From contig JAOLXX010000007.1 in assembly GCA_028343155.1 (NCBI GenBank), positions 1 to 64,000 on the forward strand: a stretch of DNA of 64,000 bases. The letters run 5' to 3'. The notes below the pieces were generated by a model. That model saw nothing but the letters and a program-made list of their open reading frames with translations, ran no database searches and was not told the origin of the DNA. The position numbers were made by a program, and so were the translations under genes. Source of the stretch: Polaribacter sp. GTDB lineage: Bacteria; Bacteroidota; Bacteroidia; Flavobacteriales; Flavobacteriaceae. Shown piece after piece: positions 2 through 58,585 of this stretch (position 1 is the first letter of the stretch; the number at the start of each line of letters is the position of its first letter).

Positions 2-565
2 GATAATGGCGACCCAATTATAAAAAGATTTCCAATAAATTTATCAACAGAAAAAAGAGTTGGTTTTGAGTTTACACTTAATTACAAACCTTTTAAAGTA
101 TGGAACATAAATAGCGATTTTAACTTATTTAATGTAACTACAGATGGAGAATATACAAATTCAGCTACAAATGCAACTCAGAATTTTGATTTTAAAAACA
201 CAGCATTTTTTGTTAGATTAAATCAAAAAATAACTTTGCCAGGTAAAACAGATTTGCAAATAAATTCCAATTACAGTGGTGCTTCTCAAACAGCTCAATC
301 AGAAAGAGATGGTATTTTCAGTTTAGACCTTGCTGCAAGTAAAGATTTGTTTCAAGAAAAAGCCTCAATTAGCATTAGTGTTAACGATGTTTTTAACGGA
401 ATAAAATATCAAGGCACAAGTAGGATTCCAGACGTTTTAGAACAATATTCTGAGTATCAAAGAAGAAAACGCCAAATAAGAGTAAGTTTTGTATATCGTT
501 TTAATCAAAAAAAGAAAAGAGACAGATACAAACAAGAGAGAGAGAATGATGGTGGCGATTTTTAA
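2..565 (+). CDS. Outer-membrane beta-barrel family protein, C-terminal end only (partial)
   Basis: The reading frame is open from the window edge to a TAA at 563-565, giving 187 residues of the C-terminus. The visible part is a run of amphipathic beta strands with alternating aromatic and polar residues, typical of the last strands of a TonB-receptor-like barrel (OMP_b-brl_3 type). It ends in a basic, Arg/Lys-rich tail followed by Gly-Gly-Asp-Phe, as is common in flavobacterial members. The position of the start, any plug domain and the substrate lie outside the window. The barrel class is fairly sure; the function is not known. Confidence 0.7.
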   Translation, partial: DNGDPIIKRFPINLSTEKRVGFEFTLNYKPFKVWNINSDFNLFNVTTDGEYTNSATNATQNFDFKNTAFFVRLNQKITLPGKTDLQINSNYSGASQTAQSERDGIFSLDLAASKDLFQEKASISISVNDVFNGIKYQGTSRIPDVLEQYSEYQRRKRQIRVSFVYRFNQKKKRDRYKQERENDGGDF

Positions 566-19600: not shown

Positions 19601-20539
19601 TTAAAGTAATCCTCTACCAATTTTCACAATTCTTTTATTTTCTATAAATTCCTTAGAGATTTTATCTAAAACGCCATTAATAAAATAGCTGCTTCTTTCA
19701 GTAGAATAATCTTTTGAAATCTCAATATATTCGTTGATCGTTACTCTTGTTGGTATTGAAGGGAAGTTGAGAAACTCAGAAATTGCCATTTTTATAAGAA
19801 TCATATCGATATCTGCAATTCGATCTGTTTCCCAATTTGGTGTTTTATTTTCAATCTCTTTTTCGTATTCGTTACTTTTTAAGACTGTTTTTCTAAATAT
19901 TTGTGAGACAAAATCTTCATCATCTTTGTCTTTGTATAGGCTCCCTAGAACAAATATTTTATCTTCTTTCTGTTTACTCAAGGTTTTTATCACCCAAGTA
20001 TTTACAAAAGGAATATCATCTACCCAGGAAATCATGGTGTCTTCATAATATTCTCCTAATTTATCATTTGGAGCAATAATTTCTTTAAAAAAATCGATAA
20101 CGAAAGCTTTATCAACCCTATAGGAAGCGTCTGAAGAATCCAAATATTTTTTGTATAAATCGCTTTCTTGCAATTGATCAAAAACAATTTTCACATATTC
20201 ACTCTCTAATTCCCAATTTCTTAAATTATTTAGTTCAACATAACCTTCTACACTAACGCTTTCTGCAATGGTGTTTATCAGTTTATTGTCTATAAATTTA
20301 GTGTTTGGTTTTAAATCTTCTTTGGTTGCAAGAATTTTCTTTCTAGAAAGCGCAATCTTTTTTGCAGCTAATTTCTGAACCTCTACAAGCAATTGAAGGT
20401 TCAAAACATACAAGTCGTACATTTTTAAAATACTATGTTTTAAAAACTTTTCTTCTCTAATAATATCATCATTATGAGATTGTAATATAGCGTATACAGA
20501 CTGCATTACTTTAACTCTAATATGTCTTCTGTTAATCAT
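19601..20539 (-). CDS. nusB: Transcription antitermination factor NusB
   Basis: RNA-binding protein of the antitermination complex on rRNA operons. The 312-residue product begins INRRHIRVKVMQSVYAIL and its C-terminal half holds the conserved NusB core (DRIADIDMILIKMAISEFL, TRVTINEYIEISKDYSTERS, FINGVLDKI). It is about twice the size of E. coli NusB because of a helical insert after the N-terminus, which is normal for Bacteroidota. A TATTTTTG box lies 29 bases upstream. First gene of the nusB-DUF1573-yajC unit, divergent from the ABC exporter gene. Confidence 0.95.
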   Translation of the reverse strand: MINRRHIRVKVMQSVYAILQSHNDDIIREEKFLKHSILKMYDLYVLNLQLLVEVQKLAAKKIALSRKKILATKEDLKPNTKFIDNKLINTIAESVSVEGYVELNNLRNWELESEYVKIVFDQLQESDLYKKYLDSSDASYRVDKAFVIDFFKEIIAPNDKLGEYYEDTMISWVDDIPFVNTWVIKTLSKQKEDKIFVLGSLYKDKDDEDFVSQIFRKTVLKSNEYEKEIENKTPNWETDRIADIDMILIKMAISEFLNFPSIPTRVTINEYIEISKDYSTERSSYFINGVLDKISKEFIENKRIVKIGRGLL

Positions 20540-56039: not shown

Positions 56040-57608
56040 TTACTTTGCTACATTTACTGCCCTAGTTTCTCTAATTACTGTCACTTTTACTTGACCAGGG
56101 TAGGTCATATCATTCTGTATTTTTTGAGAAATACTAAATGATAAGTCAGCAGCTTTGGTGTCATTCACTTTACCACTTTCTACCATGACACGTAATTCTC
56201 GTCCTGCTTGAATAGCATAGGCTTTTTGAACCCCTGGAAATCCGAATGCGATGTTTTCTAAATCTTTTAAACGTTGAATATAGGAATCTAAAACCTGACG
56301 TCTTGCGCCTGGTCTTGCTCCAGAAATAGCATCACAAACCTGTACAATTGGAGCGATTAACGTTTTCATTTCAATTTCATCATGGTGTGCTCCAATAGCA
56401 TTACAAACATCTGGTTTTTCACCGTATTTTTCTGCCCATTCCATTCCTAGTAATGCGTGCGGAAGTTCGCTTTCTGCTTCTGGTACTTTACCAATATCAT
56501 GCAATAAACCCGCACGTTTTGCAACTTTAGAATTCAAACCCATTTCTGCAGCCATAATCCCACATAAATTAGAAACTTCCCTAGAGTGTTGTAATAAATT
56601 TTGTCCATAAGAAGAACGATATTTCATTCTACCTACTGCTTTTACTAATTCAGGGTGTAAACCATGAATACCTAAATCGATTACGGTTCTTTTACCAACC
56701 TCTATAATTTCTTGGGTAATTTGTTTTTCTGTTTTAGCAACAACTTCTTCAATTCTAGCTGGGTGTATTCGTCCATCTGTAACTAACTTATGAAGTGACA
56801 AGCGAGCAATTTCTCTTCGAATAGGATCAAAACAAGAAAGAATAATAGCATCTGGGGTATCATCCACTATAATTTCCACACCAGTGGCTGCTTCTATAGC
56901 TCTAATATTACGTCCTTCTCTACCGATAATTCTTCCTTTGACATCATCAGACTCTAAGTTAAATACAGACACACAATTTTCTACAGCCTGTTCTACTCCA
57001 ACTCTTTGAATCGTCCCTAAAACTACTTTTCTAGCTTCTTGTTCTGCTGTTAATTTAGCTTCCTCAATAGATGTTTGTACATAGGCCATTGCTTCTGTTT
57101 TCGCTTCATCTTTTAGTGAACTAACCAATTCTACTTTGGCTTCATCTGCAGACAAACCAGAAATTTGCTCTAGCAGATCTACATGACGCTTGTGCATTAC
57201 TCCAAGTTCCGTTTCTTTCTTTTCTAAAAAGTCTAACTTTTTACTGTAATCGTTTTCTTTTTGTTCTAAAGAACTGTTAAGACGTTTGTTTTTGTCTAAT
57301 TCAGATGCCACTTGAGACTCTCTATCTCTTATGCGTTTTTCAACATCAGAAATCTTCTTTTCTCTGGTAATAACTACTTTTTCATGCTCAGATTTAAGTT
57401 CAATAAACTTTTCTTTCGCTTGTAATATTTTATCTTTTTTAATAGCATCTGCATCTATTTTTGCCTCTTTTAAAATTGTAGCGGCTTCTTTTCTAGTGGC
57501 GTTAAGCACGTTTTTACCTTTTGTTTTCTCCAAAGCTTTTGCAATTAAAAGTCCAACTGCAATTCCTATTACGACTCCCATAACAATGGGAAATATCATT
57601 CCATCCAT
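56040..57608 (-). CDS. rny: Ribonuclease Y
   Basis: Membrane-anchored endoribonuclease that starts mRNA decay. The 522-residue product has one N-terminal span (about 5-24), a long coiled coil (about 30-190), a KH domain with [22 protein letters not shown], and an HD domain with [13 protein letters not shown] and [12 protein letters not shown] holding the metal-binding His-Asp pair. The start at 57608 is the ATG of [11 protein letters not shown]. It is the last gene of the minus-strand run below the 6S-type RNA. Confidence 0.96.
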
Positions 57609-57626
57609 AATTTAAATTTAGTATAT

Positions 57627-57815
57627 AAAAAAAGCCTACATTAGTTTGGTTTTTTAAACTCCATTATGGTTACTTATAGGACTAACTAACTGATCAAGGA
57701 TCCACTCAAAGAACTGAAACAAGTTCAGTACTAGGGGCATGCTTTTGCAGTTAAGACTCATCCTTCATAATTGAATCGTGTTGAGTTTAATAAACAATTT
57801 ACTAACGTAGGCAGT
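57627..57815 (-). ncRNA. ssrS: 6S RNA candidate
   Basis: The 234-base gap between zapA and rny folds, on the minus strand, like 6S RNA. The closing stem pairs 57812-57801 with 57645-57634 (12 bp with one G-U), a second 8-bp stem pairs 57790-57783 with 57661-57654, and a hairpin ACTGAA/TTCAGT (57729-57724 with 57718-57713) lies near the middle; the rest stays largely open. A seven-T run (57633-57627) follows the closing stem. The length of about 185 bases equals E. coli 6S RNA, whose gene also lies next to zapA. 6S RNA binds the housekeeping RNA polymerase and lowers its activity in stationary phase. The 5' end is approximate. Confidence 0.75.
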
Positions 57816-57842
57816 GTTTTGTTAATGTATATTTTAAAGAAC

Positions 57843-58133
57843 TTATTTTAAATGAGAATCAACTAAATTAGTTAACTCTTTTATTTTATCAACTACTTCT
57901 CTACTTGTCGAATCCTTTTCTAATGAAGAAATTTCTACTTTTGAGGCAAATTGCAATGCACACATTGCTAAAACATCTTGTTTATCGCTTACGGCATAAT
58001 TTTTTTCATAAGTAGCAATTAATTTATTAATAGCATTTGCAGCTTTTCGCATCCCTTCTTCTTCTTTCGTGTTATTAACACTTAAAGGATAAGTTCTACC
58101 AGCTATAATAATATTAATTTTAAGTATTCCCAC
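57843..58133 (-). CDS. zapA: Cell division protein ZapA
   Basis: Stabilises FtsZ filaments at the Z-ring. The 96-residue product has the ZapA layout: beta-rich start LKINIIIAGRTYPLSVNNTKEEEGMRKAA split over residues 3-31, then a long helix with INKLIATYEKNYAVSDKQDVLAMCALQFA and a C-terminal coiled part. It follows the coiled-coil gene after 13 bases and precedes the 6S-type RNA by about 28 bases. Confidence 0.9.
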   Translation of the reverse strand: MGILKINIIIAGRTYPLSVNNTKEEEGMRKAANAINKLIATYEKNYAVSDKQDVLAMCALQFASKVEISSLEKDSTSREVVDKIKELTNLVDSHLK

Positions 58134-58146
58134 AATTTAAAGAACT

Positions 58147-58437
58147 TTATTCATGTAACTGAATAATACATTTGTCGATTTCTCGAATTAAAGCATTTAT
58201 TTTGAGTTTCGTATCTCTTGTATTTGTACTACTGCCATCTATAGTTTTTGCAATTTTAAGCAAATCATATTGTTTTTTTTGTGCTGCTAATAATTGCTCT
58301 TTTTCTATGAGTTGATGCTGTAATTCATTTGTGTTTTGAAGCAATATTTCATTTTCACTCTTTAAAAATTCATAATTAAAAAGCAAGTTTTTTAACTTAT
58401 CTTGCAGTAAATGAATTGCTTCTATTGTATTACTCAT
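58147..58437 (-). CDS. Small coiled-coil protein upstream of zapA
   Basis: A 96-residue, almost wholly helical protein; residues 5-60 form a coiled coil with Leu at heptad positions (LLQDKLKNLLFNYEFLKSEN, LQHQLIEKEQLLAAQKKQYD). The C-terminus ends ALIREIDKCIIQLHE. It is 13 bases upstream of zapA and surely co-expressed with it. Size, fold and neighbour suggest a division-linked partner comparable to ZapB, but there is no direct sequence proof. Confidence 0.75.
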   Translation of the reverse strand: MSNTIEAIHLLQDKLKNLLFNYEFLKSENEILLQNTNELQHQLIEKEQLLAAQKKQYDLLKIAKTIDGSSTNTRDTKLKINALIREIDKCIIQLHE

Positions 58438-58585
58438 CTATACTTTTAGAAAATAACTATGCCTACAAAGTTAACATTCTGTTTCATACTTTACAACATT
58501 TTGTTGCTTTATTACTAATATGCTAAAAATTAAACATTTACTGAAAAGATGTTTTTCACTATTTTTACACAAAAATATTTCCAAT

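Follow-up and report, generated by a model that had tools for sequence, protein, structure and literature searches.

A predicted 6S-Flavo RNA gene between zapA and rny in Polaribacter sp., with a boxA-like motif upstream

In E. coli, 6S RNA is a molecule of 183 nt with a closing stem, a central bubble and a terminal arm, and its gene, ssrS (RF00013), lies directly after zapA, across a gap of 41 bases, in the order zapA-ssrS-fau. Termination of ssrS is reportedly Rho-dependent, to go by the title of a 2011 study by Chae et al. The locus analyzed here lies on the minus strand of a 64,000-nucleotide stretch of Polaribacter sp. DNA, the whole of which we refer to as the window. In this locus a predicted 6S gene likewise directly follows zapA, which bears out the parallel with Proteobacteria that an earlier sequence-only reading of the DNA had drawn from the zapA neighbor. 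Downstream, however, lies rny rather than fau, and the window gap contains a perfect boxA match whereas the E. coli zapA-ssrS gap has none.

Several related systems are known and are quoted here from the accessible portions of the respective papers. The 6S-Flavo family (RF01685) was described in 2010 by Weinberg et al., who listed it for Bacteroidetes and judged that it acts as a class already validated does; the accessible text of their description names neither zapA-rny nor boxA (PMC2864571). 6S RNA was detected in Flavobacterium psychrophilum (PMC9723704) and, together with two classes of pRNA, in Bacteroides thetaiotaomicron (PMC7366714), which shares its phylum with the organism of the window. 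In beta- and gamma-proteobacteria the gene order is ZapB-ZapA-6S (PMC7641849). Known boxA sites precede rRNA, suhB and other protein genes, whereas the site described below precedes a 6S RNA in a putative operon; the gamma-proteobacterial consensus for NusB/E binding is GYTCTTTAANA (PMC5725501). The RNA reported here is therefore of a known kind, its family having been known since 2010. The operon and the boxA-like motif, which emerge from comparison only, appear to be new as far as we searched: among the papers inspected from full-text searches of part of the literature, none was seen to describe a boxA upstream of 6S or, for Bacteroidota, the order zapA-6S-rny.

The 6S-Flavo element

The gap between zapA and rny spans positions 57609–57842 (234 bases). 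On the minus strand it folds into a closing stem of 12 bp with one G-U pair and a conserved G-C end, and a second stem of 8 bp with an inner hairpin inside it, followed by a U-tract. The sequence-only reading had described this gap, both stems, the hairpin and the U-tract correctly to the base. The parts of the element are as follows.

57627–57814, minus strand: predicted 6S RNA (6S-Flavo) gene, closing stem to U-tract, about 186–188 nt; match of 141.9 bits to R1, a full-length model that was built from the alignment A1 (below) and contains this sequence
57801–57812, minus strand: 5' arm of the 12-bp closing stem; 9 of its 12 pairs doubly changed in A1
57634–57645, minus strand: 3' arm of the closing stem, also the terminator stem
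57627–57633, minus strand: U-tract (seven U) of the intrinsic terminator; a T-rich run follows the stem in aligned relatives
57783–57790, minus strand: 5' arm of the second stem, 8 bp in the window sequence
57654–57661, minus strand: 3' arm of the second stem
57765–57782, minus strand: central bubble, 5' strand, 18 nt, unpaired between stems 2 and 3
57662–57677, minus strand: central bubble, 3' strand, 16 nt, unpaired between stems 2 and 3

The closing stem directly precedes the U-tract and thus doubles as the terminator stem. A stable stem of 12 bp followed by seven U constitutes an intrinsic terminator, an unusual one in that its "loop" is the whole body of the 6S RNA. From the end of the U-tract to the ATG of rny there are 18 bases, the distance that had been claimed for the terminator and that the coordinates confirm.

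At gathering thresholds, Rfam gave no match anywhere in the window, so that ordinary annotation would miss the 6S gene. At a permissive threshold, RF01685 matched a core at 57656–57786 (minus strand) with 78.1 bits (E 2.2e-13), below the family's gathering cut-off of 85 bits, which is an annotation threshold and no biological feature. The match covers model positions 1–108 of 108 with the consensus pairs, two non-standard positions being marked; the core fits the model from end to end, and the covarying 12-bp closing stem with its U-tract lies outside the match. This is the only credible RF01685 copy in the organism's own genome (81% complete), two further weak places having been dropped at E above 8. 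Classical 6S (RF00013) gave nothing in the same genome at E ≤ 0.001. The sequence-only reading had also named Flavo-1 beside 6S as a model to be scanned: 6S-Flavo matched, below its cut-off, while Flavo-1 failed to match, with nothing over cut-offs in the window and nothing at E ≤ 10 in 57400–58000.

Across genomes, RF01685 was found in 247 of 249 members of the bacterial family (230 over cut-off); phylum-wide it matched 39 of 296 genomes, 14 of these over cut-off. A further set of 59 genomes, the organism's own included, yielded 42 with a match, i.e., 24 over cut-off and 18 more at E ≤ 0.001. Among the contigs listed in a scan of named genomes for boxA followed by the 6S 5' arm (below), the nearest named relatives of the window were Polaribacter (Hel1_85, 86.7% over 2.4 kb). 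The apical hairpin (window 57703–57735) varies strongly in length across loci of the organism's own genus (L004–L033 and L123), and the Rfam core measures 106–153 nt in that genus and 103–153 nt across the fetched loci. Within the genus, low RF01685 scores mostly accompany a longer apical hairpin, but not always: G023, with a core of 108 nt, scores 84.3 bits, and in another genus there are short cores below the cut-off as well. A longer apical hairpin is probably part of why the window scores below the Rfam cut-off, and apical hairpin length may push some real members under it.

Folded as a single sequence, the element is only moderately more stable than expected by chance (z −2.04; 7 of 200 shuffles did equally well). 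Its reality is settled by homology and covariation rather than by fold energy. We aligned 45 sequences from the family and order, the window included, i.e., 45 of the 90 loci described below (alignment A1). Against six helices, 94.9% of the cells in A1 pair, compared with 31–43% for slid-structure controls, a comparison that leans toward the structure because the structure was drawn from A1's own sequences. Changes on both sides were seen in 27 of 37 base pairs, and none of 500 shuffles reached any of five covariation measures; kinship can inflate the shuffle test, and does so less for the counts of pairs and types. The closing stem, which lies beyond the Rfam match, is equally well supported. 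The closing stem, large central bubble and terminal arm by which a 6S RNA is recognized were all present and backed by covariation. The covariation that the sequence-only reading had looked to in the zapA-rny gap of relatives was therefore found in the stems, and its proposed identity stood: sequence, covarying fold and fixed place identify the element as the 6S RNA of this organism and as belonging to 6S-Flavo.

Gene neighborhood and promoters

The genes lie in the order coiled-coil gene, zapA, 6S, rny. Together with the likely promoter they occupy the following positions.

58466–58496, minus strand: likely sigma-A promoter of the operon, consisting of TTG, 20 bases and TAACTTTG, the latter at 58473–58466
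58147–58437, minus strand: gene of a 96-aa protein, coiled-coil by eye, kept upstream of zapA; no Pfam family over cut-off
57843–58133, minus strand: zapA; Pfam ZapA, E 5.4e-16
56040–57608, minus strand: rny, RNase Y; RNase_Y_N, KH_1 and HD domains over cut-offs

The 96-aa gene stands in the place that ZapB occupies in proteobacteria, and no family model claims it. We compared 90 Flavobacteriales loci, a chosen and non-independent part of the RF01685 matches, comprising 32 from the organism's own genus, 46 from other genera of the family and 12 from further families of the order. In all 90, 6S comes immediately after zapA, with 38–75 nt between the zapA stop codon and the Rfam core, and in 87 rny is found downstream of 6S. 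One further locus, L122, in which neither zapA nor rny adjoins, was left out of these counts; R1 matches it at E 1.4e-6. Three loci from Flavobacteriaceae with genomes of 1.2–1.8 Mb (L085, L096 and L099) keep zapA-6S, and the 6 kb fetched for each contain no rny; the gene that follows 6S in L099 runs convergently and looks by eye like one for an aquaporin/glycerol facilitator.

At class level, 60 loci were fetched around rny, a chosen part of 116 genomes with rny. A relative of the 96-aa gene and zapA precede rny in 59 of them; L258, which has no zapA match, was left out of the 59 counted. Fifteen loci were picked as 6S-bearing by gap length and the look of the fold before the R1 search, and L255 and L257, also long-gapped, were placed among the 44 others. 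R1 matched 14 of the 15 picked loci at E < 0.01 and none of 45 others, with weak matches (E 0.047–0.71) at L236, L218, L211 and, from among the 15, L215. RF01685 reached at most 36.4 bits on the picked loci. The class matches of R1 also covary (alignment A2, in which 18 rows, including four weak ones, were fitted to the model). In whole genomes, R1 matched 34 of 119 at E ≤ 0.05, and in 10 of these 34 the 6S match and rny lie on different contigs (two of these matches being weak, E 0.02–0.04). In L200, positions 392–437 (minus strand) gave a weak match to Acido-Lenti-1 RNA (30.7 bits against a cut-off of 37, E 0.0018).

Further out, RF00013 gave matches below cut-off in 40 of 296 genomes of the phylum, all of them outside this class. 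rny lay in the same 3-kb stretch in all 30 that were fetched of those 40, and the gene before 6S was ZapA by Pfam in all four tested. The zapA-6S-rny order thus recurs elsewhere in the phylum, and from gene order we infer that the zapA-6S link is old. As the zapA-6S order is shared with proteobacteria, 6S-Flavo and classical 6S are likely to be one orthologous gene, and the fixed gene order allows 6S to be located by position in genomes that the sequence models miss.

In flavobacteria, TAnnTTTG serves as the sigma-A box (PMC9723704, accessible portion). In 86 of the 90 loci this box occurs between −160 and +40 of the called start of the 96-aa ORF, and in 80 of those 86 it stands 26–38 bases before the start. 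Within 150 nt before 6S it is found in four of 90 loci only. It is also absent in 86 of 87 loci from the stretch that begins 60 bases upstream of the U-tract's end and extends to the rny ATG; the U-tract lies a median of 20 bases from this ATG. In the window itself, no such box precedes 6S or rny. A possible mimic of the box, located in the bubble's 3' strand, was also considered; as judged from A1, it is not kept in this genus. The simplest reading of this pattern would be that the four genes are co-transcribed, that 6S is cut out and that rny is reached by read-through; promoters of another consensus before 6S or rny are possible. Expression of rny by read-through of the 6S terminator is plausible, and the operon reading offers a testable link of 6S with the levels of RNase Y, an mRNA-decay enzyme.

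The boxA-like motif

A short motif lies at the upstream end of the gap.

57832–57842, minus strand: boxA-like motif, a perfect GYTCTTTAANA match directly after the zapA stop codon

Taken alone, the match in the window is insignificant, with 2 matches in 64 kb compared with 1.52 expected. Among relatives, the best conserved piece between the zapA stop and 6S is ACGTTCTTTAAAATA, and the perfect GYTCTTTAANA occurs in 42 of the 90 gaps, compared with 0.04 expected from base-shuffled gaps and with 10 matches in 907,374 other positions of the loci. By group, the perfect consensus was found in 14 of 32 loci of the organism's own genus, 26 of 46 from other genera of the family and 2 of 12 from other families; for the looser GTTCNT the corresponding figures were 28 of 32, 42 of 46 and 4 of 12. 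Thus 48 of 90 loci are without a perfect boxA and 16 of 90 without even GTTCNT. Six loci of one order-level family (L113, L114 and L118–L121, i.e., all that were fetched) keep 6S and its place and have no boxA-like motif. In named genomes, at least 119 stretches carry boxA and then the 6S 5' arm, and we take these to be Flavobacteriaceae or less precisely named members of the group.

As an independent check, we compared the gap with rRNA leaders. A matrix was derived from 30 of 34 16S rRNA leaders of relatives, no 16S gene having been found in the organism's own incomplete genome, and its consensus, AGTTCATTGACATA, is related but not identical to the gap motif. When all positions on both strands of a locus were ranked by this matrix, the zapA-6S gap came out on top in 44 of 90 loci and among the best five in 62; for 21 of the 90 gaps, over 5% of shuffled versions of the same gap reached an equal score. 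The matrix scan cut the gap six bases before the zapA stop and so misses motifs that overlap the stop codon, whereas the GTTCNT count used a wider cut. In 17 of 28 box-bearing leaders the motif begins 47–51 bases after the start of the TAnnTTTG box, and elsewhere at 9–156 bases. A tRNA-Gly/tRNA-Leu operon in the same genus (L147, genome G020) shows a TAACTTTG box, then AAGTTCTTTAAAATA, then the tRNAs, which suggests that boxA-like leaders may be common to several stable RNAs.

The class-level loci serve as a natural control. GTTCTT occurs near the zapA stop in 14 of the 15 picked loci, compared with 4 of the 44 others (Fisher p 3e-9); for RCGTTCTT the corresponding figures are 13 of 15 and 0 of 44. 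When R1 instead defines the 6S-bearing loci, GTTCTT is present in 13 of 14, and among all fetched R1 loci at zapA-rny in 20 of 23. One class locus, L227, has 6S and no boxA. Measured in 13 class loci, the motif keeps close to the zapA stop (mean +2.6, sd 4.6), and its spacing from 6S takes values between 12 and 105 nt. Neither distance varies much in 74 Flavobacteriales loci (sd 4.0 to the zapA stop, 3.7 to 6S), and the case for anchoring at the stop codon therefore comes from the class loci alone. Over eight whole genomes the longer motif was not enriched, with 25 matches compared with 25 for a reversed control; five of the former were the 6S site itself and one was the tRNA-Gly/tRNA-Leu operon of L147. 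At the level of sequence, a boxA-like motif is present in the gap and is associated with 6S.

Seven 6S genes that have been relocated were also fetched. Four of them have neither box nor boxA, L282 has GTTCTT, and L274 has a promoter box at −78 together with an rRNA-type variant of the motif. In L286, a perfect TATATTTG box starts 12 bases before the 6S 5' end and there is no boxA; this gene may have gained a promoter of its own. The NusB and Rho families were found in all 10 genomes searched, including the organism's own. A NusB-domain gene lies in the window itself, at 19652–19933 on the minus strand (Pfam NusB, E 3.3e-20).

A proposed mechanism and its alternatives

The reading that we prefer, with a probability of roughly 70%, is that the 6S-Flavo gene belongs to one operon, that a Nus complex at boxA aids the polymerase, and that the terminator leaks into rny. 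Transcription would begin at the promoter before the coiled-coil gene and run through the coiled-coil gene, zapA, 6S and rny as one operon. At the end of zapA, where translation stops, boxA would recruit NusB-S10 to the polymerase. The complex could then shield the untranslated 6S transcript from Rho or, as proposed for rRNA, could keep the upstream RNA near the polymerase and help it fold, such that the two distant arms of the closing stem come together. This stem and the U-tract would terminate most polymerases, a fraction of them continuing into rny. If 6S has no promoter of its own, its 5' end must come from processing. By analogy with the established family, the RNA would bind the sigma-A RNA polymerase holoenzyme by mimicking an open promoter, and would be released by the synthesis of short product RNAs. 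At E. coli rRNA, Nus factors are said to act mainly in RNA folding and are not needed against Rho, and at E. coli suhB they promote Rho termination (PMC5725501, accessible portion); the boxA motif by itself is thus compatible with an effect in either direction.

Were this mechanism true, a boxA before 6S would subject a global inhibitor of the polymerase to factors otherwise known from rRNA, and would be relevant to how RNA that is not translated is completed in mid-operon. We are more tentative, and would put the odds well short of even, about its extension to Bacteroidia at large, in which 6S would be boxA-controlled and a Nus complex loaded at the zapA stop would cross 6S, fend off Rho or bring the closing-stem arms together, and partly carry the polymerase into rny. 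In that case the supply of NusB and free S10, which reports ribosome synthesis, would set the levels of both 6S and RNase Y.

A different explanation is a plain 6S-Flavo gene with a weak or non-consensus promoter of its own in the gap, the motif being part of that promoter rather than a boxA. 6S genes elsewhere usually have their own promoters, the relocated L286 has TATATTTG before 6S and no boxA, no other part of the gap is as well conserved as the motif, and the distance from motif to 6S is fairly constant in the Flavobacteriales. Set against this, in rRNA leaders the motif comes after the promoter box (by 47–51 bases in 17 of 28), which places it in the transcribed leader, and it is similarly placed in the tRNA operon; at class level the distance to 6S varies over 12–105 nt with that to the zapA stop nearly fixed; and TAnnTTTG precedes 6S in only 4 of 90 loci. 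We consider this explanation unlikely.

We give slightly less weight still to the view that the motif is a processing signal which frees the 5' ends of 6S, rRNA and tRNA, and not a site for Nus factors. It does precede three kinds of processed stable RNA, and a co-transcribed 6S would need a cut near its 5' end; however, the distance from motif to 6S is variable in the class loci, and the motif fits the published NusB/E-binding boxA consensus in a group in which NusB was present in 10 of 10 genomes.

That the element is instead a cis-acting leader of rny, i.e., an attenuator that merely resembles 6S, is very improbable. The terminator 18 bases before rny would suit such a role, as would the lack of a promoter consensus between the two in 86 of 87 loci, but the element matches 6S-Flavo, three loci (L085, L096 and L099) keep it behind zapA with no rny in the fetched 6 kb, 10 of the 34 R1-positive genomes carry it on another contig than rny (two weak), and the F. 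psychrophilum 6S is reported as a detected RNA (PMC9723704, accessible portion). A chance fold in an AT-rich gap, which the modest single-sequence z-score of −2.04 might have allowed, is already refuted and of negligible probability, given covariation that none of 500 shuffles reached and the presence of the family in 247 of 249 family genomes.
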